IMG/VR virus record: IMGVR_UViG_3300021376_000465
Location: 1 to 20,029 of that record
DNA: 20,029 nt
From: a virus
Direction: 5' to 3' (one strand)
The notes under the pieces were generated by a model. It saw nothing but the letters and a program-made list of their open reading frames with translations, had not been told where the DNA came from and ran no database searches. Below are positions 5,176 to 20,029 of this stretch, piece by piece (position 1 is the first letter of the stretch; every line of letters begins with the position of its first letter). Position numbers and translations under genes: made by a program.

Positions 5176-8100
5176 ATGAGTTTTAAATGTATCCATATTG
5201 CAGATATTCATTTTCGAGGTTTAAGTCGACACGAAGAATATAAAAATGTTTTCAGCCAACTTTTTCAACAAGCTCGTGAAATTAAACCTGACGTTATCTT
5301 TGTGGGTGGTGATATTGTACATACAAAAACGCAAGGTATTTCACCTGAACTTATTGACGTTTTAAGCTGGTGGTTTAATAATTTATCATCAATTGCACCA
5401 ACCCATATTGTGTTAGGAAATCATGATGGTTTAATTCAAAACCATGACAGACTTGACGCAATTACACCGATTGTTGATGCGTTAAATAATCCTAGACTAT
5501 TTCTATATAAGAAAAGTGGTGTATACACAACTGGCGTCAAAGGGTTTAATTGGTGCGTTTTTTCATGTTTTGATGAAGAAAATTGGGTAAATGTCAAGCC
5601 AGTGCAAGGTGAAATCAATATTGCGACATTTCACGGAGCTGTTAAAGGAAGTACAACAGATGTTAATTGGGAGCTTGAAGGTGATGTTGATGTTGGCTTT
5701 TTTAATAATTACGATTTTGTATTATTAGGTGATATACACAAGATGCAGTATATGGATTTTGAAAAAAGAATAGCATATTCAGGTTCAACAATTCAACAAA
5801 ACTATGGAGAGTCAATTAATAAAGGCTTTTTATTATGGGAAATTAATTCTAAAAATGATTATAAATCAACATTTTATTCATTAAAAAATCCAAATCCTTT
5901 TGTCACTGTCGAGTGGCAAGATACTTTTGAAAATACAATCAAAGAGTGTGATAAATTTGATAATTTTTCAAGATTTAGAGTAAAATCCAAACAGAAATTA
6001 GATATAAATAACACAAAATTAATACAATCATATCTTAAAGATCATAAAAAAGCTGTTGAAGTTGTTTTTAAGAATGAAGGTGTTAAAAATAGTGTATCAT
6101 TAATTGATGAGACTAAAAAGAAATTCAGTATTTGGGATAATGAGATTAGATTGAAGATGTTACGTGATTTTTTTGATCATACTGTTACAAATGAGCAGAT
6201 CAAAGAGATAAACGAACTTTTCGTAAAATATTTACAAAATCTGTCTCCTGAACAAGCGCTTAAATCATATCAATGGCAATTAAAAGATTTGGAATTCAAT
6301 AATATCTTTTCATATGGTGAAGGAAATTATTTAAATTTTGATAATATGAATGGCGTTGTAGGTGTTTTTGGTAAAAATGCCATCGGTAAGTCATCGATTA
6401 CAACAGCGTTAATGTATACACTTTTTAATTCAACTGATCGAGGATCTGTTAAAAATTTGCATGTTATCAATCATAGCAAAGAGAATTGCTCAGCCAAGGC
6501 TGTAATTGAAGTTAATAACAATAAATACTTGATTGAAAGAAATAGTAAAAAAGTTACAAATAAAAAGCGAAATGAGACATCTGCGTCAACAGATTTATCA
6601 CTTACAAGATTAAACAATTCTGATTCAAAGACAAATGAATCAGATGAACAGCGTAGAGAAACAGAAAAAATTTTACGTGAATTAATTGGAAATGCCGATG
6701 AATTTCTAATGACGACATTCGCATCACAAGGTAATATTAACGCATTTATTAATGAAAAGAGTGGTAGTCGTAAGCACTTTATTTCAAAATTTTTAAATTT
6801 AGATATTTTTGAAGATTTATTAAAAATTGCTAAAGACGATTCAATTGAGATTAAAAGTAAATTAAAGAATGTAAATTCAAAAAACGGTAATAGTTCTTGG
6901 CAAATGCTTAGAAATGAAGCATATCAAAAAATTAATGAAAATTTAACACAAATTGAACAGTTTGAACAAAAGCTGGATCAAACTAAAACTGATGAGATTG
7001 ATTGTAGAATTAATCTTGAAAACATTAAAAATAAAAATGTAGATTTATCTTCGATCAAAATTTTGCAAGAAGAATTATCTTTATTAAAAAATTCAAATCA
7101 AAAAGATATTACATTAAATGATAGATATGTTGAAGAAATTAGTGAAATAACATTAAAAATTGAAAAATTTGAAAAATTAAAAGCGTTAATTAATCTCCCC
7201 GAATTAGAAAGTGACAAAGAAAGACTGATTAATTTAAAGGCTCAATTAACAATGTCTATTACTAATTTCGAAAATTTACGACGAGATATTGATAAAAAAA
7301 GAAATGCACATAAACTTTTATCGAGTGTTCCATGTGGCGATAATTTTCCGACGTGTAGATTTATTAAAAACGCTTATGAAGATTATCAAAATATTACACA
7401 AAACGAAGATCAAATCATTGAACTAGAAAAGTCTATAATCGATTTAAAAAAAATTGTTGACGAAATTGAAAACAAGCAAATTTCATCAAAAATTGAAAAA
7501 TATTATGAACATTTTAACAAAAATCAACAAAATGAACTGCAACTTAATTTATTGCAACAAAAGAAAATTCTGCAACAAAGTAAGATTGATGACAATAATT
7601 TAAAAATTGATAATTTAATAGACAAGTTAGATAAATTATCAATGTTAATTAATAATGACGATATCGCTTTACTAAAAGAATATCAAAATAAATTAACATT
7701 GATCAAGAATCAAATAACATCAATCGATTCAAATTTGTCTTCATTAAAAGGTGAAAATATTTATTTAAAGAAAAATATTGAAAACTACATAATTGAAGAA
7801 GAAAAAGAAAAAGAATTAATTGCACAATGGAAAATATACGAATTATTTATGAATTCAGTATCAAAAAAGGGTTTACCTTCAACTTTATTAAAAGAAATGT
7901 TGCCGTCTTTAAATAAGGAAGTTAAGGAAATCTTAAATGATATTGTTGAATTCACAATTGATATTGAGATACAAGATGACGATTTAGAGATTTATTTGAA
8001 CAATCATAATCAACGTCGGATTATAGAAACAGCATCAGGAATGGAAAAAATGATCACTTCTTTAGCCATTCGTGTCGGTTTAATCAATATTAGCAATTTA

Positions 8101-8307
8101 CCTAAATCAAATATTTTTATTATTGATGAAGGTTTTGGCGCTTTAGATGATACAAATATCGGAGCTTGTATAAAATTATTAGAAAGTTTTAAAAGATTTT
8201 TTAAAACAGTCTTGATTATATCACATGTTGATGCAATTAAAGATGCAGTTGATAATATTGTATACATAGAAAAGCAAGGAAATGATTCTTATGTTAGATT
8301 TGACTAA
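5176..8307 (+). CDS. Fused Mre11-type nuclease and Rad50-type ATPase (gp47-gp46 / SbcD-SbcC)
   Basis: One 1043-residue chain joins two proteins that are separate in T4 (gp47, gp46). The N-terminal part is a metallophosphoesterase: Asp10 and His12 (ADIHF), Asp46 (GGDIVH), Asn82-His83 (GNHD), then FHGA and GDIHK. From about residue 370 a Rad50/SMC ATPase begins: Walker A GKNAIGKSS at 399-407, long Lys/Glu/Asn-rich coiled-coil arms (about 560-930), a Cys pair at 720 and 727 at the arm tip, signature SGMEK at 954-958, and Walker B IFIIDEGFGALD at 980-991 followed by an ISH switch. In T4 the complex resects DNA ends for recombination-dependent replication and helps degrade host DNA. AAAAAGGA lies just before the ATG. 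There is no stop or frame change between the halves. Confidence 0.93.
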   Translation: MSFKCIHIADIHFRGLSRHEEYKNVFSQLFQQAREIKPDVIFVGGDIVHTKTQGISPELIDVLSWWFNNLSSIAPTHIVLGNHDGLIQNHDRLDAITPIVDALNNPRLFLYKKSGVYTTGVKGFNWCVFSCFDEENWVNVKPVQGEINIATFHGAVKGSTTDVNWELEGDVDVGFFNNYDFVLLGDIHKMQYMDFEKRIAYSGSTIQQNYGESINKGFLLWEINSKNDYKSTFYSLKNPNPFVTVEWQDTFENTIKECDKFDNFSRFRVKSKQKLDINNTKLIQSYLKDHKKAVEVVFKNEGVKNSVSLIDETKKKFSIWDNEIRLKMLRDFFDHTVTNEQIKEINELFVKYLQNLSPEQALKSYQWQLKDLEFNNIFSYGEGNYLNFDNMNGVVGVFGKNAIGKSSITTALMYTLFNSTDRGSVKNLHVINHSKENCSAKAVIEVNNNKYLIERNSKKVTNKKRNETSASTDLSLTRLNNSDSKTNESDEQRRETEKILRELIGNADEFLMTTFASQGNINAFINEKSGSRKHFISKFLNLDIFEDLLKIAKDDSIEIKSKLKNVNSKNGNSSWQMLRNEAYQKINENLTQIEQFEQKLDQTKTDEIDCRINLENIKNKNVDLSSIKILQEELSLLKNSNQKDITLNDRYVEEISEITLKIEKFEKLKALINLPELESDKERLINLKAQLTMSITNFENLRRDIDKKRNAHKLLSSVPCGDNFPTCRFIKNAYEDYQNITQNEDQIIELEKSIIDLKKIVDEIENKQISSKIEKYYEHFNKNQQNELQLNLLQQKKILQQSKIDDNNLKIDNLIDKLDKLSMLINNDDIALLKEYQNKLTLIKNQITSIDSNLSSLKGENIYLKKNIENYIIEEEKEKELIAQWKIYELFMNSVSKKGLPSTLLKEMLPSLNKEVKEILNDIVEFTIDIEIQDDDLEIYLNNHNQRRIIETASGMEKMITSLAIRVGLINISNLPKSNIFIIDEGFGALDDTNIGACIKLLESFKRFFKTVLIISHVDAIKDAVDNIVYIEKQGNDSYVRFD

Positions 8308-10644: not shown

Positions 10645-12726
10645 ATGGCAAAAGAAGATAGTTTATTTAAAAGATTAACTGATTTATTTCGTTCAGGGCC
10701 AACTGTTCGAAAAAAGGTAAAAGCTAATCAAAAGAAAACAGGTGGATCGCCTAGCAGTTTGGATTTATTTAAGAAAAATCATAGTGACGTGTATAATTCT
10801 ACAATTTCTGCATATGGTTCATATGATAGAATGGCTCGTTATTCAGATTTTAGCGAGATGGAATCGACCCCGGAACTGTCCAGCGCCCTAGATATTTACG
10901 CAGAAGAAACAGTATCAGCAGACTCAAACGGAAAAGTCTTACATATCTATTCTGAAAATCGTAAAATTAAACAATTACTTGAAAATCTATTTTATGACGT
11001 ACTAAATGTTGAATTTAATTTAGTCATGTGGGTTCGTAATCTCTGTAAATACGGTGATTTCTTTCTCTTTAATGATGTTTCACCTGAATTTGGTGTTATT
11101 AATGTTTTCCCTATTCCAATCGCTGAAATTGAACGTGAAGAAGGCTTTGACCCTGAAGATCCTTCAGCTGTTCGTTTTCGTTGGATTACACAAGGTAACA
11201 GAATTTTAGAAAACTGGCAAATCAGTCACTTCAGATTATTGGGTAATGACGCATTCTTACCTTACGGATCCTCTGTTTTAGAAGGTGCAAGACGTATTTG
11301 GCGTCAATTAATCTTAATTGAAGATGCAATGTTGGTTTATCGTGTTATTCGTGCACCTGAACGTCGCGTTTTTTATATTGATGTTGGTAATATTCCACCT
11401 GAAAATATCGCCGATTACTTACAACAAGCACAAACTTCGTTAAAAAGAAACACCGTTGTCGATAAAACTTCAGGTAAAGTAGATTTAAGATATAATCCAC
11501 TATCAGTTGATGAAGACTATTTCTTACCTGTACGTGGTGGTGATACAGGTACTCGTATCGATACTTTGGCAGGTGGTCAAAATACTTCTGCAATTGAAGA
11601 CGTAGAATATATTCAAAAAAAATTATTTGCTGCCCTTAAAATTCCAAAAGCTTACCTAGGTTATGATGAAGAAATTGGTAGTAAATCTACATTGGCGCAA
11701 GAAGATATTCGTTTTAGTCGAACCATTCAACGTATTCAAAAAACTGTTTTGGCAGAATTAAATAAACTAGCGATGATTCATCTCTATTCACATGGTTATA
11801 GTGAAGAAGATTTATTGGATTTCGAAATCAAATTATCAAATCCATCCAGTATTGCTCAACAACAAAAATTAGAATTAATTCGTACAAAGTTTGATATTGC
11901 ATCATCAGTACCTGAAGGATTGGTTGATTCTGAATGGGTATCTAAAAATATTATGGAATTTAATGATGATGAAATTGCACGTATTAAAAGAGGAAAAATT
12001 AAAGACAAACTGGAAGGTCTTAAACTTGAAGCTGTTACATTACCTGGTAGCAATGACAATCAGGTTGAAGGCGGTGGCGGTGAAGGTGGCGGCGGTGGTG
12101 GCGGTGATATGGGTGGTGCAGAAGATATGGGTGGTGGTGCAGGTGGTGGTGAAGGTGAAGCAGCGATGGGAGGAGGAGGATTGGCAGATTTATTCTCAGG
12201 TGATATGAAATTAGGCACAATTTTAGCTGAAGATGATGAAGATAAAGATGATGTGTTATCTGATGATAATCAATTCTCTGATGGGGGTGATTTTCATGAA
12301 GAAGATAATCCCAGAAAGAAGATCGATGTTGTTCCATCAAAGATGTATAAAAATCAAAAATATCGTAATGAAAAATTAAAAAATCATGGATCTAATTCAA
12401 CATATGGTAGAGATCCAGATGGTAGTTCTTTTATTAAAAATTCAGCTGCAAGTTTGAGTAATAAGTCTAATTATTTAAATAACGCAGGTGATTCAAGTCG
12501 TAGTTTAATACCTGATCCACCTGGGTCAGATGATTTAGGATTTGATAGTAAACCTATTTCTGTTAGTCCAAAACAATCAAATGAAAATCAAATGAAAAAA
12601 ATATTTGATTCAATGAATAGAAACTTTGGATATAAATTTGCGAATAATAAAAATAAAAGTCCGAATTTATTAAATGAAGATGCAGAAATGATAATTATTG
12701 ATAATGAAGATATTGGAGAGGATTAA
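10645..12726 (+). CDS. Portal protein (gp20-like) with glycine-rich and acidic C-terminal extension
   Basis: The portal forms the dodecameric ring at the head vertex through which terminase packages DNA, and nucleates prohead assembly. The T4-type core spans about residues 60-465: an N-terminal STPELSSALDIYAEE, then GSSVLEGARRIW with RAPERRVFYIDVG (about 206-250), and the IPKAYLGYDE and STLAQEDIRFSRT segments (about 333-360). At 693 residues it is about 170 longer than T4 gp20 (524). The excess is a Gly-rich stretch (476-512), then an acidic, Ser/Asn-rich, probably disordered tail ending in DNEDIGED. The tail contains LAE (527-529) and LNE (676-678), which fit the gp21 cleavage pattern. The start is set by TTGGAA seven bases upstream. 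Confidence 0.94.
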   Translation: MAKEDSLFKRLTDLFRSGPTVRKKVKANQKKTGGSPSSLDLFKKNHSDVYNSTISAYGSYDRMARYSDFSEMESTPELSSALDIYAEETVSADSNGKVLHIYSENRKIKQLLENLFYDVLNVEFNLVMWVRNLCKYGDFFLFNDVSPEFGVINVFPIPIAEIEREEGFDPEDPSAVRFRWITQGNRILENWQISHFRLLGNDAFLPYGSSVLEGARRIWRQLILIEDAMLVYRVIRAPERRVFYIDVGNIPPENIADYLQQAQTSLKRNTVVDKTSGKVDLRYNPLSVDEDYFLPVRGGDTGTRIDTLAGGQNTSAIEDVEYIQKKLFAALKIPKAYLGYDEEIGSKSTLAQEDIRFSRTIQRIQKTVLAELNKLAMIHLYSHGYSEEDLLDFEIKLSNPSSIAQQQKLELIRTKFDIASSVPEGLVDSEWVSKNIMEFNDDEIARIKRGKIKDKLEGLKLEAVTLPGSNDNQVEGGGGEGGGGGGGDMGGAEDMGGGAGGGEGEAAMGGGGLADLFSGDMKLGTILAEDDEDKDDVLSDDNQFSDGGDFHEEDNPRKKIDVVPSKMYKNQKYRNEKLKNHGSNSTYGRDPDGSSFIKNSAASLSNKSNYLNNAGDSSRSLIPDPPGSDDLGFDSKPISVSPKQSNENQMKKIFDSMNRNFGYKFANNKNKSPNLLNEDAEMIIIDNEDIGED
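12070..12180 (+). repeat. Glycine-codon low-complexity tract in the portal gene
   Basis: About 110 bases of GGT/GGC/GGA codons mixed with GAA, GAT and ATG encode residues 476-512 (runs such as GGGGEGGGGGGG). This is a sharp G-rich island in otherwise AT-rich DNA. Many GG doublets and a few GGG runs on the coding strand could form weak two-layer quadruplexes. It marks the join between the conserved portal core and its extra tail. Confidence 0.8.
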
Positions 12727-12728
12727 TA

Positions 12729-13583
12729 ATGAAGAATAGAAGCCACAATAAAAAAAGAAATGTCGGCATCATATATGAACAGTTAATAAACCATATGTGT
12801 CAATGTGTGATTAAAAATGACGAAAGTGGTATTATCAAATCAAAAGGTATTATTAAAGAAAATTTTAAAAAAACATCACAGTTACATCGTGAATTAAAAT
12901 TTTTTAATGCTTTAATCCAAACAAGAGGTATTGAAGCAAGCCTTGCAACAAGTATTATACAGGAAGCTAAAAGAGCTTGCCAAAAACATTTTTCAGATGA
13001 TCTTTTGGAGAGAGAAAAGTCACATTTAATTAAAGAATTAAATTATTCTTTTGGTAAAGGTAATATTTTTGAAAGCAAAATTAAAAACTATAAAATTTTA
13101 GCAACTGTTCAAACATTATTAAACGAATGGAGAAAAGGTTCACAATCTGATTTTCAAATCACAACTGAATATGAACGTCAACTTCATGAATGGATGACAA
13201 CAAAAGAAGAAGAAGTTATTGTTGAAACAAATTTGGTATCACCTGATATCGATGAATTAACATTCAGATTAATGAATGAAAAATTCAATAAGAAATATGA
13301 TAAATTATTAAATAACGATCAAAAAAGAATTATTAAACTCTTTGTGGAAAGTAAATCACTTGAAAACGAGAGTGAATTAATTGATCTTTTTGAAGAAATT
13401 AAATTAAAATCAACAAAATTATTAGAAAATTATCGATGCGATAATCAAATGCTATCTGAGAGTTATGATATTGTCAAACACAAAATAAAAAATGTTAAAA
13501 CTCAAGAAATAACCGAAGAAAATGTTAAAAGATTTTTAACTTTATGTAAATTAAACGAAGAATTAAAAGGTGATGATAAATGA
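12729..13583 (+). CDS. Helical protein between portal and prohead protease; possible prohead core protein
   Basis: I do not recognise a named family. The 284 residues are charged and almost entirely helix-forming, with a basic N-terminus (KNRSHNKKRN) and only three Cys. It starts two bases after the portal stop behind a strong GGAGAGG site, and its TGA overlaps the protease ATG (ATGA), so the three genes are probably co-translated. In T4 the same interval holds the prohead core proteins gp67 and gp68, so a core or protease-associated role is the natural guess. It is larger than either and no sequence match to them is visible to me. Confidence 0.7.
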   Translation: MKNRSHNKKRNVGIIYEQLINHMCQCVIKNDESGIIKSKGIIKENFKKTSQLHRELKFFNALIQTRGIEASLATSIIQEAKRACQKHFSDDLLEREKSHLIKELNYSFGKGNIFESKIKNYKILATVQTLLNEWRKGSQSDFQITTEYERQLHEWMTTKEEEVIVETNLVSPDIDELTFRLMNEKFNKKYDKLLNNDQKRIIKLFVESKSLENESELIDLFEEIKLKSTKLLENYRCDNQMLSESYDIVKHKIKNVKTQEITEENVKRFLTLCKLNEELKGDDK

Positions 13584-14188
13584 GCAGACTATTAACAGAA
13601 TGGATCGCTTTTGAATATGATAAAAAAATAATTCAAGAAGCAAAAATTGGCGGAGGTCCACTAATCATGAAAGGAATACTCCAAAAATCAGATACTCTTA
13701 ACCAAAACGGCAGAGTTTATCCCCGCGTAATTCTTGAAAGAGAAGTTAGAAATTATCAAAAATTCATCAAAGAAAATAGAGCATTAGGCGAATTAGATCA
13801 CCCAGATTCCTCAGTCGTTGAATTAAAAAATGCCTCACATATTATTCGTGAAGCGCATATGGAAGGCAACATTTGTTACGGAACAGTTGAAATATTAAAT
13901 ACACCTGCAGGTAAAATTCTACAATCATTGGTTGAAAGCGGCGTCACCTTAGGTATTTCTTCTCGAGGTGTAGGCTCAACACAACCCCAAGGTGAATTAC
14001 AAATTGTGCAAGATGATTTTCAATTAATTTGTTGGGATTTCGTCTCTGAACCATCTACACCTGGGGCTTTTATGATGAAAGAAGGAAAAGAAATTTCTTC
14101 ACGACAATTACATGAAATAAACTCATCATTTTTTAACAAAAGTGATAGATTATATAGAATTTTTAATGAAATAGGAGACTGGAAATAA
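13580..14188 (+). CDS. Prohead core protease (gp21-like)
   Basis: This serine protease acts inside the prohead, digesting the scaffold and trimming the capsid proteins before DNA is packaged. Its 202 residues match T4 gp21 in size (212). The family core is clear: MKGILQKSDTLNQNGRVYP (30-48), GELDHP with the probable catalytic His74, GISSRG with the probable nucleophile Ser127 or Ser128, and a C-terminal WDFVSEPSTPGAFM (152-165). The first 20 residues end in IIQE followed by A, a sequence fitting the family's own (I/L)-x-E cleavage rule, so self-trimming is possible. The start overlaps the previous stop by four bases. Confidence 0.94.
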   Translation: MSRLLTEWIAFEYDKKIIQEAKIGGGPLIMKGILQKSDTLNQNGRVYPRVILEREVRNYQKFIKENRALGELDHPDSSVVELKNASHIIREAHMEGNICYGTVEILNTPAGKILQSLVESGVTLGISSRGVGSTQPQGELQIVQDDFQLICWDFVSEPSTPGAFMMKEGKEISSRQLHEINSSFFNKSDRLYRIFNEIGDWK

Positions 14189-14611: not shown

Positions 14612-15217
14612 ATGAAATTAGGATACGATGATTTAAAAGAATTAGTTAAAGAAGCGCTTGTTGAAATTCTGCAAGAAGGTTTAGGTAATTTATTATTATC
14701 TGATACACGAGTTAACAGAGATGTCGCAGATAATCATGATGATGAAGAAATTGAAGATACAGTTTCAGTTGCGAAACAAAATCAAACAGCTCGACAGGTA
14801 TCAGCACCTTTTACTAAATCAAGTCAAGCGCCTCAAAAACAACACAAGACCAATGAATCACAAAATCGTGGTCAGCAAACATTGACATCCATGTATGAAG
14901 CTAAAACTTTACATAAAATGGGTGAACAATTATCTAAACAAAAAGCTACACAAACTGGAAAAAGCGGTTTAATTGGTAAAAATACAATCAAGTCAATTAC
15001 TGATGATCCGTTAATGGCTTCAATTTTTGCAGATACAGCAAAAACAACTTTGCAAGAACAAACCAAGGCTGAAAGTTCAAATATTGGTTTACAACGTGGG
15101 CATGATCGTGCTGCGCAAATTGCTGCAGAAAATGATCCAATGGATTTATTTGATGAAAATGTATCTTCAAATTGGGAAAATTTGGCTTTTGGTCCCACCA
15201 ATCCTGCAAAAAAGTAA
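14612..15217 (+). CDS. Putative prohead internal protein with capsid-targeting-like N-terminus
   Basis: No named family is recognised. The 201 residues begin with an amphipathic helix, LKELVKEALVEILQE (8-22), followed by a disordered-looking region rich in Gln, Ser, Thr and Lys (about 40-130) and a more ordered end. The helix resembles the start of the gene at 17385 (LRKLIKEAVIKHLLSE). Its end, L20-Q-E22 before G, fits the (I/L)-x-E cleavage rule of the gp21 protease. In T4, short N-terminal targeting peptides of this kind bring internal proteins into the prohead core and are then cut off. A packaged internal or core protein is therefore inferred. It starts two bases after the previous stop with no strong ribosome site. 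Confidence 0.62.
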   Translation: MKLGYDDLKELVKEALVEILQEGLGNLLLSDTRVNRDVADNHDDEEIEDTVSVAKQNQTARQVSAPFTKSSQAPQKQHKTNESQNRGQQTLTSMYEAKTLHKMGEQLSKQKATQTGKSGLIGKNTIKSITDDPLMASIFADTAKTTLQEQTKAESSNIGLQRGHDRAAQIAAENDPMDLFDENVSSNWENLAFGPTNPAKK

Positions 15218-15301
15218 CTTATAACTAAAAAATTTATTAAAATCTAATATAGAATAATAATTATTAAGAAAACAATAAACATTTATTTTATAGGAGATAA
15301 T

Positions 15302-15580
15302 ATGTCAACCAAAAGATTAACAGATGATGTTTTACGTCAAATGATTGCTCAAGAAAAAAGACGTTTGGTCGAAACATTAGAATTGCAATTAAAAAGACCT
15401 GAAGATGCTCATAAAAAAGCACGCGAAATAAAGGCTGATGATTATGCAAACACATTAAGCACAAAAATTAATCATTATAATGCAATGAAATTACATGAAG
15501 CTGAATTGCTTAAACAATATATGAAACTTCGTGAAGCCCGTGAATTACTTAAATCACAACTTCTTAAGGCGCTTAAGTAA
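15302..15580 (+). CDS. Small all-helical charged protein in the head cluster
   Basis: I do not recognise this 92-residue protein. It is almost wholly helical and charged, with heptad-like Leu spacing (VLRQMIAQEKRRLVETLELQL and AELLKQYMKLREARELLKSQLLKAL), and probably forms a coiled coil or helical hairpin. A strong TAGGAG site precedes the ATG. TTATTAAGAA at 15261-15270 may belong to a set of AT-rich boxes upstream of structural genes. Its position between protease and scaffold suggests a prohead core component such as gp67/68; this is unproven. Confidence 0.62.
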   Translation: MSTKRLTDDVLRQMIAQEKRRLVETLELQLKRPEDAHKKAREIKADDYANTLSTKINHYNAMKLHEAELLKQYMKLREARELLKSQLLKALK

Positions 15581-15590
15581 AATTTTTTCT
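15563..15590 (+). terminator. Possible weak intrinsic terminator at the end of the 92-residue gene
   Basis: CTTAAG (15563-15568), a GCG loop and CTTAAG (15572-15577) can form a six-pair hairpin that overlaps the last codons. Within a few bases comes a run of six T (15583-15588), then a T-rich stretch. The stem is short with only two G-C pairs, so termination would be weak. The next gene has its own strong ribosome site and a possible promoter, consistent with a boundary here. Confidence 0.35.
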
Positions 15591-15635
15591 TTTCATTCTT
15601 TTTAACAATACTATTTAATTTTTGTGATATACTTA

Positions 15636-15645
15636 TTATTAAAAT
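15636..15645 (+). promoter_or_regulatory. AT-rich box TTATTAAAAT upstream of the 15667 gene, candidate promoter element
   Basis: This ten-base box is identical to the one before the portal gene (10611-10620). It lies 21 bases from the start codon; the portal copy lies 24 bases away. Just upstream, TGATATACT (15625-15633) resembles an extended -10 element. Both readings are tentative, because TTATTAAAA also occurs inside coding regions as Leu-Leu-Lys codons. Confidence 0.3.
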
Positions 15646-15666
15646 AAAACTTTAGGAGTGTAATTT

Positions 15667-16491
15667 ATGAAAAGAAATACTTATCCTGTCGCCGAAAATG
15701 CACAAGCAGTAGCATATCGTGAAATATTTAAAGATGACACAAAAGTTGGACGTGTAAAAGGAATTAATAATTCCCCTAATTTAGTTTCTCTATTTCCAAA
15801 TTCACCTTTTAATACAGGTGGAATAGAAAATGATCGTGGAAATTTGTTGGATTCTGAAACAACAACAGGACCATTGACTAATGATTTAATTGCTAAAATG
15901 TTTCAAGCTGTAATAGATGGTAAACATGAGTTTGATGAAGTTACTAACGAGATTTTTAGAGTTACACCACATGTTACAAAAAGTAACGAGCCCGGTCATA
16001 ATTACAATTGGTTGTATCGAGACACACGTATGGATATGAATTTTAAATATTTAGATGAAGCTGGTAATTCAAATTCACCTAATGCTGACACGGCGCCTGT
16101 TGGTTCAAATGCACCAATTCCTGATAATCTAGCGCCTAGTGATCATCCATTTTGGGGTCATGCAAATTTAAATGTACCTTCGGTTAATTGGAATGAACCA
16201 CGTGGCAGTCATTTTAAAGACGGAAAAGGTATACCACAATTACAAAGAGGTTCAGGCGGTTTTGGAACAGTATATACTGTGTCAAATAAAGCATTTGCTG
16301 CTCAAGAAAAAATTGGATTTTACTTTACAAATTCCTATATCGATGCAAAAGTTGCGGGTACAGAAACAGCTCCTTTAGATAGAATGAATAAAACAACAGG
16401 TGTCAATGGTAAATCTATTAAAGATGATTCAAATACAATTGCTGATAATAATAGCAACTTATATCAAAATATTGATAAAGAATTTAACTGA
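15667..16491 (+). CDS. Unrecognised 274-residue protein in the head cluster
   Basis: I do not recognise this protein. It is polar, rich in Asn, Gly, Pro and Asp, and has no Cys, membrane segment or catalytic motif. The N-terminus (AQAVAYREIF) may form a helix. The centre has aromatic, turn-rich segments such as GHNYNWLYRDTRMDMNF and SDHPFWGHANLNVPSVNW, and the end is low-complexity (DNNSNLYQNIDKEFN). This composition is typical of an extended virion protein. It has a strong TAGGAG site and its own possible promoter box, so abundant expression is plausible. A structural head role is inferred from position between the protease and capsid genes. Confidence 0.62.
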   Translation: MKRNTYPVAENAQAVAYREIFKDDTKVGRVKGINNSPNLVSLFPNSPFNTGGIENDRGNLLDSETTTGPLTNDLIAKMFQAVIDGKHEFDEVTNEIFRVTPHVTKSNEPGHNYNWLYRDTRMDMNFKYLDEAGNSNSPNADTAPVGSNAPIPDNLAPSDHPFWGHANLNVPSVNWNEPRGSHFKDGKGIPQLQRGSGGFGTVYTVSNKAFAAQEKIGFYFTNSYIDAKVAGTETAPLDRMNKTTGVNGKSIKDDSNTIADNNSNLYQNIDKEFN

Positions 16492-16494
16492 GTG

Positions 16495-16510
16495 TTATAA
16501 AGTTATAAAG
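16495..16510. repeat. Tandem TTATAAAG repeat in the 16491-16523 gap
   Basis: Two copies of TTATAAAG lie back to back, followed by AAAGTATAAAAA, immediately after the TGA of the previous gene and 12 bases before the next ATG. The copies resemble late-promoter boxes (TATAAATA). Alternatively they may simply be spacer sequence standing in for a poor ribosome site (AGAAAG). Confidence 0.35.
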
Positions 16511-16522
16511 AAAGTATAAAAA

Positions 16523-17338
16523 ATGCAAAGTGTAGGAACAGGTATACAGTCTGGAACAAGTTTAGGTTCAGGATTTTCTTCAAGACCTGATCCTTCACCA
16601 CGTAAAATAGGAATAGGCAACCCTAGAACTTTAGGGGGTTCAACTGCAGGAATATATAAAACGTCAGAAAGAAGTCAATATGATCAACCTGACGCGTACG
16701 ATGAAGATGTTGATGAAGAAGATATTGATGTTGCAAAAAGAAATATTCCTATCTCGAATATTGATGGTGTTCGTTCTGCGACAGATTCAATGTCTAGAAT
16801 TGGAACAAAAGCGCAAACAAACCAGGCAACAGCTGGCGGTATCGGTTCTTACGCTGGTGCAGTTGGTCCGATTGGTGAGAGTATTTTACGTAGTTATATT
16901 TATGAAATGATATTATCTGAAAATTCTATTGCACGTGTTTATGGATATAATTCTTTGGGTATTGGCAATCAGACAGCAGCTAAGAATTTAGGAAGTCGTA
17001 AAGGTGGTCCTCTTGTAGGAAATAATTTTAATGCTAATGGTGGAATTGTAAGAAATCGTAGTAATGGGCAATCTCGATTTGGTATGCAACAACATTCAGG
17101 TGAAAGAACAGGTAATCCAGCCAAATGGGTGAATGGTATTTCTCCAATACAGCAACCGTCGTTGGAAGATGAAAATTTAGGTGAAATTACGCATGTGATT
17201 GATGATAATCAAAGAGAAGAAGAGGGAATTGGGCAGTCAACGTATGAATTATTTACAAATTCAGTTGAAAATCGTGATACAAATACAATTGGTTTAAGAC
17301 GTCATCGAGAGCAAAGAATAAAAAGTAAGAATAAATAA
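16523..17338 (+). CDS. Unrecognised Gly/Ser-rich 271-residue protein with an embedded L-x-E helix
   Basis: I do not recognise this protein. The first ~115 residues are Gly/Ser/Arg-rich with an acidic patch (YDEDVDEEDIDV), so probably disordered. Residues 121-133 form the one clear amphipathic helix, ILRSYIYEMILSE. It resembles the N-terminal helices of the genes at 14612 and 17385 and ends in L-S-E. The C-terminal part is Gly/Asn-rich, ending in a basic tail (RRHREQRIKSKNK). No Cys is present. The ribosome site is poor. If the embedded helix is a cleavage or core-binding site, the protein could be a prohead component processed in its middle; this is inference. Confidence 0.6.
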   Translation: MQSVGTGIQSGTSLGSGFSSRPDPSPRKIGIGNPRTLGGSTAGIYKTSERSQYDQPDAYDEDVDEEDIDVAKRNIPISNIDGVRSATDSMSRIGTKAQTNQATAGGIGSYAGAVGPIGESILRSYIYEMILSENSIARVYGYNSLGIGNQTAAKNLGSRKGGPLVGNNFNANGGIVRNRSNGQSRFGMQQHSGERTGNPAKWVNGISPIQQPSLEDENLGEITHVIDDNQREEEGIGQSTYELFTNSVENRDTNTIGLRRHREQRIKSKNK

Positions 17339-17384
17339 TACTTTACAATTAATATATAATTATTAAATAAAAAGATGAGATGTT

Positions 17385-17777
17385 ATGAGTTTAATTAAAA
17401 GTAGTACTCTTAGAAAACTAATTAAAGAAGCTGTAATTAAGCATTTATTGAGTGAAATTAAAAAAGAAGATAAGCCAGATGATGATTGTAAAGATTGTGA
17501 TAAACCTGTGTCTAAATCATCAAAAAGTTCAAAAACAATTGGTAAAAAGCCTTATCGCGGTCAGAAAGTTGATCCAATGTCATTACATAAAATATCAGGA
17601 ACATCAACAAAAAAAGCAAAAGCAAAATCTTCTGTATCAAATACGAAAAGTAAAACAAGTGATGATGACGAGCCTAAAGAAATGAGAAAATTTGGTTCGC
17701 ATTATGATGATGAGGCTTATGATTTGGAAGAATCTGATTATGAGCATGAAGAAGCAGAAGATGAATTTGAAGATTAA
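17385..17777 (+). CDS. Small putative internal protein with capsid-targeting-like N-terminus
   Basis: No named family is recognised. The 130 residues start with an amphipathic helix, LRKLIKEAVIKHLLSE (9-24), very like the start of the gene at 14612. A short CKDCDKP segment follows, then a Lys/Ser-rich basic middle (40-90) and a strongly acidic end (DYEHEEAEDEFED). The helix ends in L22-S-E24, fitting gp21 cleavage. The remainder would be a small, highly charged, disordered polypeptide, as expected of a DNA-associated internal protein. Its position just before the scaffold gene supports a prohead core role. The box TTATTAAATA (17360-17369) lies 15 bases upstream of the ATG. Confidence 0.62.
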   Translation: MSLIKSSTLRKLIKEAVIKHLLSEIKKEDKPDDDCKDCDKPVSKSSKSSKTIGKKPYRGQKVDPMSLHKISGTSTKKAKAKSSVSNTKSKTSDDDEPKEMRKFGSHYDDEAYDLEESDYEHEEAEDEFED

Positions 17778-17825: not shown

Positions 17826-17849
17826 AAATATTAAATGAAAGAAAAAGAC

Positions 17850-19697
17850 ATGACTAGTAGTTTATTTAATGAAGCATTAAATGACGCTAAAGCAATTCGC
17901 GCAGCGGCTGAAGAACGTGCTAAGCAACAGTTATTAGAAACAATGTCACCTAAATTAAAAAAAATTGTTGAAAATACAATTAATCAACAGATGGGTCTAT
18001 TTGAAGAAGAAAGTGATGATATCGATTTAGATAATCTCGAGCAAGAGTTAGCTGATGAGACTGAATCAACATCGTCAACAGCATCTTCAACTAGTCAAAT
18101 GTCTGAGGATGATGATCTAGGTGAAATTGATTTAAATGAAGAAGAAGTTGAAGAATGTGGTCAAAATTATTCAATGGAAAGTGATGAACCTTACGATCGA
18201 AAAGTAAACGAATCAGCCAAAGAAGTTTTAAACATTCTTTTAACCAAAGATGTAATAAAAAGAAATTTACAAAAAGAAGTAAAAGCTTTTGAAAAAGAAG
18301 TAAAATTACTAAAAAATATGTTTGTAATGATTGAAAATCACAAAGTTGATAATAAAACTGTTAAAAAAGTTGATCAAACATTATTAAAATTAGTTGAAAA
18401 TTCAAAAAATATCGCCAGTAACGATATAATTAAAAATCAAACCCAAATTAAACTACAATTTAGCAATGCGTTGCAGGAGTTAAACCAAATGACAAGAAGA
18501 AGAAATAACATTTTAGCTGAAAATTATGCTAGCTTAGCACGTCGTTCTAGACGTCTTTTTGAAGCTGAAGGTGATGAAGAAGAAACAGACGATTTATCAG
18601 ATGTTCCTGCTTTAGATGATGAAAGTCCCGAAATGGATGACGAAATGGATATGGGCGCCGATATGGATTCTAAGTTTGAAGAATCTGATCCTGAAACCTT
18701 AGAACGTATTGCCAATCAAATTAGACAAATGTTAAACGGCGAAGGTGGCGATGAAGAAGGTATGGAAGATATAGGCGATGAAGAAGGTATGGAAGATATG
18801 GGCGATGAAGAAGAAGAAAAAAGCCCTAAGACTGAATGGGCTAGACGTCGCGGTCGTTTATTTGCAGAATCCGATGATTTAGAAGAAGTTGAAGATTTAG
18901 AAGAACAAGAATATTGTGAAGATGATATGCCAGAAATGCAAACAGAATCAGATTATTTCTTTGAAGCCGATAGGAAAGAAACTGCAGCTCAGAAAAAAGC
19001 ACGTTTAGCTAAGGAAAAAGCAGCAGCTGAAAAGAAGAAGAATGAAAAGAAGAAGACAACTGAATCTCAGCGTCGTGGTGGTGATGTCTTCTTGGAAATT
19101 GATGAAAACATGTTGAAGCGTGAAATTTCTCGTATGAAGAAACTTCGTGAAGGTGATGCTGAAGATATGATTTCTCATTTTGGTGGTGCTAAGAGTGAAG
19201 GGGAACCATTCTTGGATTTCGATGATAGTGACTTAAATGGTAATGTAGATAATTTAGGAAGTTTTCCTTCAAAGGGTGGACGTTTAAAAGAAGGTCGCTC
19301 TTACAATAGCAACGGACAAACCAGATTGCTCGAAGGTAAAGTTCAAAATTACAGAAAAGCATTAACCGGTATGAAAAATCAACTTAGCGAAATGACTTTG
19401 TTCAATGCAAAGTTATTGTATGCTAACAAACTTATGCAAAATCGTGATCTTACAAACTCACAACAACGTCATATTGTTGAAAGTTTAGATCAAGCTAAAA
19501 ACCTTCGTGAAGCCCAACTTCTTTTCGAAGGTCTTAGCAAGAGCTTAACAAAGGGAACAGGTCGTTCTGGTTCTCTTAACGAAAGCGCAAGTCGCCGAAT
19601 CGCCGGTGGTTCAAGCAGATCAACTTCTAGTGCACAATCAGCACAAAATAGAATTGAAACAGACCGCTGGGCAATCTTGGCTGGTATCAAGAAATAA
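17850..19697 (+). CDS. Prohead scaffold/core protein, gp22-like, unusually long
   Basis: The scaffold fills the prohead and is destroyed by the protease. From ATG 17850 it has 615 residues against 269 in T4 gp22. Layout: N-terminal helix SLFNEALNDAKAIRAAAEERA (3-23); acidic stretch (~47-115); coiled coil with EVKAFEKEVKLLKNM (~125-225); acidic repeats (~235-350); Lys/Glu-rich helix (~370-410); and a C-terminal helical domain with LLYANKLMQNRDL and SLDQAKNLREAQLLFEGL (~515-570), the recognisable scaffold part. Two copies of RRx(R/G)RLF (231-237, 332-338) and many L-x-E or L-x-x-E sites suit protease digestion. The in-frame ATG at 17835 has no ribosome site, so 17850 is preferred. It directly precedes the capsid gene, as in T4. 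Confidence 0.85.
   Translation: MTSSLFNEALNDAKAIRAAAEERAKQQLLETMSPKLKKIVENTINQQMGLFEEESDDIDLDNLEQELADETESTSSTASSTSQMSEDDDLGEIDLNEEEVEECGQNYSMESDEPYDRKVNESAKEVLNILLTKDVIKRNLQKEVKAFEKEVKLLKNMFVMIENHKVDNKTVKKVDQTLLKLVENSKNIASNDIIKNQTQIKLQFSNALQELNQMTRRRNNILAENYASLARRSRRLFEAEGDEEETDDLSDVPALDDESPEMDDEMDMGADMDSKFEESDPETLERIANQIRQMLNGEGGDEEGMEDIGDEEGMEDMGDEEEEKSPKTEWARRRGRLFAESDDLEEVEDLEEQEYCEDDMPEMQTESDYFFEADRKETAAQKKARLAKEKAAAEKKKNEKKKTTESQRRGGDVFLEIDENMLKREISRMKKLREGDAEDMISHFGGAKSEGEPFLDFDDSDLNGNVDNLGSFPSKGGRLKEGRSYNSNGQTRLLEGKVQNYRKALTGMKNQLSEMTLFNAKLLYANKLMQNRDLTNSQQRHIVESLDQAKNLREAQLLFEGLSKSLTKGTGRSGSLNESASRRIAGGSSRSTSSAQSAQNRIETDRWAILAGIKK
18747..18818. repeat. 27-base tandem repeat encoding GDEEGMEDI/M
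   Basis: Two full copies of a 27-base unit beginning GGCGATGAAGAAGGTATG (18747-18773 and 18774-18800) differ at the last base only. A shortened third copy (18801-18818) follows. They encode acidic nine-residue repeats in the scaffold. The near identity suggests recent slippage duplication and possible length variation between relatives. Confidence 0.85.
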
Positions 19698-19792: not shown

Positions 19793-20029
19793 ATGTCAAG
19801 TTATACACTACAATCACTCACCGAAGGCATCAGACAACGCCACGTCGGTGTACAAAATAAAAGATTAGTCGAAAAGTGGGCACGTACAGGTCTTCTCAGA
19901 GGTCTCAACGATGTAAATCGTGAAAATATGTCTCAACTTCTAGAAAACCAAGCCTCACAACTCCTCCGCGAATCAAATACCCTCGGTAACGATGCTGTTA
20001 AAGGTTTCACCTCTATCGCTTTCCCCATC
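19793..20029 (+). CDS. Major capsid protein (gp23-like), N-terminal part, cut by window edge
   Basis: Only the first 79 residues are present. They show the T4-type capsid propeptide: a charged helical head (SLTEGIRQRH, RLVEKWARTGLLRGL, MSQLLENQASQLLRE) followed by SNTLGNDAVKGFTSIAFP, which is typical of the start of the mature capsid shell protein. Cleavage by the gp21 protease is predicted after Glu60 (L58-R59-E60, then Ser), close to the T4 site after residue 65. AGGAG at 19776-19780 lies 12 bases before the ATG. Codons switch to many C-ending forms (CTC, ACC, GGC, CGC) unlike most neighbours, as expected of a very highly expressed gene. Confidence 0.9.
   Translation, partial: MSSYTLQSLTEGIRQRHVGVQNKRLVEKWARTGLLRGLNDVNRENMSQLLENQASQLLRESNTLGNDAVKGFTSIAFPI

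Follow-up and report, generated by a model that had tools for sequence, protein, structure and literature searches.

The T4 internal proteins IPI-III and Alt carry a capsid targeting sequence (CTS), a short N-terminal peptide common to otherwise unrelated bodies, which is cut by the gp21 prohead protease. IPII and IPIII begin MKTYQEFIAE, followed by A (T4 record). Targeting is reported to depend on CTS residues 4 and 7, and processing on residues 8 and 10; the cleavage site of gp21 lies after L/I-x-E (PMC9026906). The internal proteins of T-even phages (Ips) have nothing in common but this N-terminal leader; they are injected and inhibit type IV restriction enzymes. Their genes are dispensable and variable, and at least 10 Ips were reported (PMC12373910). 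In the giant phages SPN3US and phiKZ, head and ejection proteins lose an N-terminal propeptide when the prohead protease cuts them after E, and two of these proteins have an identical N-terminus (PMC5694885). Here we describe short amphipathic segments in the genome of an uncultivated T4-like virus, which is known only from one 20,029-base record (IMG/VR IMGVR_UViG_3300021376_000465; the window). The window encodes a T4-type terminase and portal, and its Peptidase_S77 (gp21-type) prohead protease is followed by a block of small genes (14190, 14612, 15302, 15667, 16523 and 17385). We read the segments, with a probability of about 0.7, as targeting tags of an expanded T4-like head-loading (cargo) system.

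The segments of 14612, 17385 and 16523 were located exactly where the original prediction had placed them (Table 1). They were scored with hidden Markov models (HMMs) of two tag types trained on other phages, type I (MKITKRQLRRIIKEE-like) and type II (MKLLREYIRELLTE-like). Among the 51 open reading frames (ORFs) of the window, 17385 had the best type I score (10.4 bits, E=0.0014), with 14612 next (8.6 bits, E=0.005), and 16523 had the best type II score (Table 1). Hence, the proposed single shared segment holds for 14612 and 17385, while 16523 carries a second flavour that is internal and not N-terminal. The first type I model included orthologues of 14612. In a cargo-only model, from which the orthologues of 14612 and 15302 (families A and B) were removed, 17385 still scored well, and 15302 and 14612 (E=0.09) were both borderline (Table 1). 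With 15302, the window holds a fourth tag carrier that had been overlooked. The tag of 14612 is considered real because it is conserved in relatives, not because of its own score.

At least 477 stretches in IMG/VR contain relatives of the protease, and 80 of them were analysed as relative loci. Family A was found in 67 of the 80, and the motif was present in all 67 orthologues. L8, K9, K13, E14 and E18 of its tag were invariant and V12, L16, L20 and E22 nearly invariant, so both [VL]-x-E sites are kept. The individual window scores are modest, as would be expected if three amphipathic helices were alike by chance. However, independent models put the same three ORFs on top among 51, and the segments are conserved in dozens of relatives; these data refute a chance resemblance.

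The tag was predicted to occur on genes elsewhere, and this was borne out in the genomes of relatives: 634 N-terminally tagged genes were found across 257 loci, which were picked by the tag pattern and are therefore a non-random sample, several of them from related viruses. Large contigs contained tandem genes that each begin with MKITKRQLRRIIKEE or a sequence near it and then diverge wholly. There were 3 to 46 tag matches per contig (19 contigs); the 13 control records, including several with an S77 match, had none. At ≥20 bits, 528 matches were N-terminal and 60 were elsewhere. The latter were partly start-codon miscalls of the simple longest-ORF caller and partly real second tags.

The tagged bodies formed 397 clusters, of which 309 were singletons. 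With a median net charge per residue of -0.061, they were more acidic than the other ORFs (-0.010, p=2e-60). A Pfam search of 100 body representatives returned six families only, including zeta toxin, M78 peptidase and exonuclease, and Pfam and PHROGs searches of the tagged cargo bodies gave mostly no match. As a side observation, 36 proteins (e.g. L278:11992, L210:5786, L465:15491, L234:1412 and L182:4972) have more than one type I tag, with spacings of 40 residues or more, and some of these tags are at the extreme C-terminus, as would fit a fusion of several cargos or targeting of both ends.

Position 8 of the tag was L in 95%, position 12 I in 92% and position 14 E in about 95%; the core [LIV]-x-E was present in 95% of tags. 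Tagged genes had a DNA identity of 0.6-0.8 to one another in codons 1-15, which dropped to about 0.3 at codon 16 and beyond. The third codon positions of the tag were near-random, even within one locus. Therefore, selection acts on the tag peptide and not on the DNA, and the end of the tag is sharp. Recent duplication as the source of the shared N-termini was ruled out by the divergence of the third codon positions; an old duplication followed by fast divergence of the bodies is possible.

The type II tag came to light in genes whose bodies also occur in type I genes but whose starts differ. A zeta-toxin-like kinase body stands behind both types (L111:7639 vs L495:11926, 54% identity over 244 aa), as does the body of the GDVILTGRFKNKR protein (L455:1068 and L438:4290), and there are other such pairs. 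At ≥10 bits, 91 type II matches were N-terminal and seven elsewhere, and none of the 91 was also type I. The two tag types are thus swappable on the same bodies. The internal segment of 16523 belongs to the type II flavour.

The tags of the arrays and those of the head cluster proved to be connected. When the cargo-only model was run on all called ORFs of the 80 protease loci, the matches at ≥8 bits were 46 members of family A, 23 of family B and only two others. The cargo tag and the head-core tag are therefore the same. Of 14 large tag-bearing contigs, 10 have a full-length family A gene adjoining the S77 gene; none of 13 controls does. Moreover, tagged genes lie on the head-gene strand more often than other genes (166/173 vs 2082/2456, p=9e-6; neighbouring genes are not independent). 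S77 itself was present in 13 of 14 tag-bearing contigs of at least 100 kb; its presence was dropped as proof of the tag system since the baseline in random large contigs was too high.

These results also bear on a narrower explanation, by which only the head-cluster genes (14612, 15302 and 16523) encode protease-cut core proteins, and the helix of the array genes stems from old duplication, their products being made and used in the infected cell. Families A and B are indeed conserved head-cluster genes, and the array bodies mostly have no known domains. Yet the array tag is kept by selection and stops at codon 15, the bodies exchange tags and the tagged genes prefer the head-gene strand, which makes this explanation very improbable.

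The claim that each segment ends in L-x-E, as the cleavage site, needs refinement. The L-x-E ends are present, but every segment has two overlapping or tandem [ILV]-x-E sites rather than one. The most conserved cleavage-like site is the I/V-x-E at residue 14. A second [LIV]-x-E at residues 17-27 was found in 60% of tags; stretches of the same length further into the proteins had one in 16-23%. In 59% of tags, the core E is followed by another E, the commonest residue there, whereas A follows at the known T4 IP site; tags that have a second site may therefore actually be cut there.

The T4 late promoter TATAAATA was not enriched in the genomes of relatives. A different heptamer, ATANTTA, was enriched roughly tenfold or more in the 12-60 bases upstream of genes in nine genomes (including G005, G006, G010, G013, G019 and G032), notably upstream of portal, scaffold, sheath and tube genes, and its common forms were rarer than expected genome-wide. 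It is a candidate late promoter, unlike the T4 one.

Several observations weigh against the head-loading interpretation. Taken singly, the family A and B members of the window resemble the array tags only weakly. The second L-x-E is absent from 40% of tags, and the E after the core site departs from T4. The tag is basic (about +3.75 over the first 14 residues), and the T4 CTS is not. S77 also occurred in five of eight random contigs of at least 100 kb. Upstream of type I tagged genes, ATANTTA showed no enrichment (p=0.5); for other CTS-like N-termini, the enrichment was weak (p=0.048). No T4 head or IP protein was among the significant scores of the tag models, and a Phi-x-x-Phi-[ILV]-x-E helix (Phi, hydrophobic) is not a rare pattern.

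The charge, the negative promoter test for type I genes, the tags without a second L-x-E and the location of many arrays far from head genes would fit a tag that is a docking helix for nucleic acid, a membrane, a host factor or a phage replication structure, with [ILV]-x-E being a mere consequence of the amphipathic-helix shape. We regard such a role as unlikely, though it is the most serious competitor. In the 80 loci, the cargo-only model matches almost only families A and B, directly after the protease. The same bodies also occur with a tag of another type that keeps the [ILV]-x-E register, and the second cleavage-like site is in excess. Hence, we prefer targeting to the prohead.

Like the T4 CTS, the tag is a short N-terminal peptide common to unrelated bodies in phages with an S77 protease. 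L8, I11, I12 and E14 of the tag align with Y4, F7, I8 and E10 of T4, giving the shared pattern Phi-x-x-Phi-[ILV]-x-E (YQEFIAE in T4). As the tag models have no matches among T4 head or IP proteins, the link to T4 is a likeness of design and register and not demonstrated descent. The differences are considerable: the tag described here is basic, has 15 residues and two interchangeable flavours, and is found on core genes and inside proteins as well; a contig has 3 to 46 matches and the bodies make up about 400 families, compared with the at least 10 Ips of T-even phages. The presumed removal of N-terminal peptides after E by the prohead protease would be a likeness to SPN3US and phiKZ. Their propeptides mostly have 100-130 residues and end in A-x-E or S-x-E, in contrast to 15-25 residues and [ILV]-x-E here, although the position of the internal tag of 16523 (121-133) resembles the giant-phage propeptide length. 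T4 gp67 and gp68 are likewise small and charged, and their genes neighbour those of the portal, protease, scaffold and capsid, but neither protein matches the tag models, and the gene order differs in that the tagged core genes come after the protease here. T4 gp67 was rejected as a homologue of the tagged core genes, as it had no score with the tag models.

If the segments are targeting tags, the basic amphipathic Phi-x-x-Phi-[ILV]-x-E helix, N-terminal or, in the 16523 family, internal, would bind the prohead core during head assembly. Its partner would probably be the acidic gp22-like scaffold; the candidate protein (17835) has a net charge of -48, 20 [LI]-x-E sites and orthologues in 60 loci. 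The S77 protease would then cut after the E of [ILV]-x-E and release the body inside the head, and the freed body could enter the host along with the DNA by injection. The tag carriers of this clade comprise conserved head-core genes next to the protease (the 14612, 15302 and 16523 families) and lineage-specific genes such as 17385; the relatives add hundreds of unrelated proteins that are mostly acidic and commonly arranged in arrays. The core of the original prediction, a modular tag that is tied to the prohead protease and marks candidate cargo, is strongly supported in relatives, but 14612 and 15302 are conserved head-cluster genes and not variable cargo.

The chances appear about even that, in a large uncultivated lineage of aquatic T4-like phages, each virion carries and injects dozens of different small proteins loaded by interchangeable 15-residue tags, and that the tag is a key to several hundred phage effector families. 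In that case, about 600 sampled genes, nearly all without a known domain, would be candidates for injected host-takeover or anti-defence proteins, recognisable by a 15-residue signature rather than by homology. Phages would acquire new cargo by adding a small swappable tag to a new body.

Table 1. Head-cluster genes and tag segments of the window
Feature	Position	Strand	Evidence or remark
gp20-type portal	10645..12726	+	PF07230 E=7.6e-80
gp21-type prohead protease (Peptidase_S77), presumed tag-cutting enzyme	13580..14188	+	Pfam PF03420 E=1.7e-27; PHROG head maturation protease E=9e-49
14612, family A head-cluster gene with a tag helix at the N-terminus, a variable linker and a conserved C-terminus	14612..15217	+	67 of 80 loci, motif always present
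Type I tag LKELVKEALVEILQE, residues 8-22 of 14612; candidate cuts after E14 and E22	14633..14677	+	
15302, family B head-cluster gene	15302..15580	+	64 loci; cargo-only tag model E=0.06 on window copy
Type I-like tag VLRQMIAQEKRRLVE of 15302; core site Q instead of the usual E	15329..15373	+	
16523, family E head-cluster gene with internal type II tag	16523..17338	+	60 relatives
Type II tag ILRSYIYEMILSE, residues 121-133 of 16523	16883..16921	+	type II HMM 11.2 bits, E=0.0008
17385, lineage-specific tagged gene, candidate cargo or core protein	17385..17777	+	sole orthologue in L003
Type I tag LRKLIKEAVIKHLLSE, residues 9-24 of 17385	17409..17456	+	cargo-only model 10.1 bits, E=0.0015
17835, gp22-position scaffold candidate, acidic, presumed tag-binding core	17835..19697	+	identity inferred from synteny
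gp23-type major capsid gene, start only	19793..20029	+	L003 orthologue is Gp23, E=1.1e-77, matches gp23 structures

In relatives, the orthologues of 14612 and 15302 lie downstream of the prohead protease. Family A keeps its N-terminal 30 residues and its C-terminus, but not the linker. AlphaFold2 predicted a helix at residues 5-33 (predicted local distance difference test 87-92 across residues 1-20), a disordered linker and further helices of low confidence; the whole fold was of low confidence (predicted template modelling score 0.28), while the tag helix was confident. The charged, disordered bodies proposed earlier are thus only partly disordered, as the C-terminus of 14612 is conserved and helical. 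An N-terminal Phi-x-x-Phi-[LIV]-x-E was found in 53 of 64 family B orthologues, and the N-terminus in relatives reads LRRIVxEER...LNETLE. The mid-protein type II tag of family E was detected in 22 of 60 relatives at ≥6 bits. For 17385, the 80 loci contained one orthologue, in the closest relative (L003). No convincing Pfam or PHROGs match was obtained for 14612, 15302 or 17385.

A literature search for the tag sequence found no paper, and a tblastn search of tag peptides against named phages gave matches only in an uncultured 484 kb phage and in the cultivated Flavobacterium phage immuto, whose host is Flavobacterium sp. LMO8. The protease of immuto is 49% identical to that of the window. Its tag matches were MKKSQLRQIIKEAL (20.5 bits), MKKSQLREIIRKEL (15.3 bits) and MKKSELVKLIKEEL (8.7 bits). 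It also has two shared N-termini of its own: four genes have MENFDLKKFLVENKLT and two have MKKQILSEQFKRMQxLAGIITES, and nearly all of these tag N-termini have Phi-x-x-Phi-[IL]-x-E. Candidate tagged proteins are QQO91870.1 (MKKSQLRQIIKE, then ALD), QQO91856.1 and QQO91855.1, as well as proteins with MENFDLKKFLVE before N and LAGIITE before S. In Microcystis phage Mel-JY01, also cultivated, the gene directly after the protease (WWT39310.1) contains YQKIVQEVVREVIAE before N, noticed by eye and motif; the family A model gave this protein no significant score.

Among 84,980 cellular genomes, the tag pattern occurred in three metagenome-assembled genomes (MAGs) only. In the MAG Methylococcaceae TMED69, the tag arrays of contig NHDW01000006.1 (305,838 bases) are accompanied by an S77 protease and a family A gene. 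It looks like a phage contig because the latter two are on the same contig, and it is most likely a jumbo T4-like phage genome inside a bacterial bin.

The N-terminus of the gp23-type protein contains a conserved LLENQASQLLRE followed by S (window 19961-19972), a candidate propeptide cut between LLRE and S after residue 60. The site reads VLRE or VLKE in relatives, and the T4 propeptide cut is close by, at 65. A single 1043-aa ORF at 5176-8307 fuses a calcineurin-like phosphoesterase with an SbcC/RAD50-like ATPase, roles that belong to separate proteins in T4 (gp47 and gp46). Beyond the point where the window stops, two large genes directly after the capsid gene of L003 (18005-20606) begin with LKKIINKSLKE and LKKIIKNKLLE.

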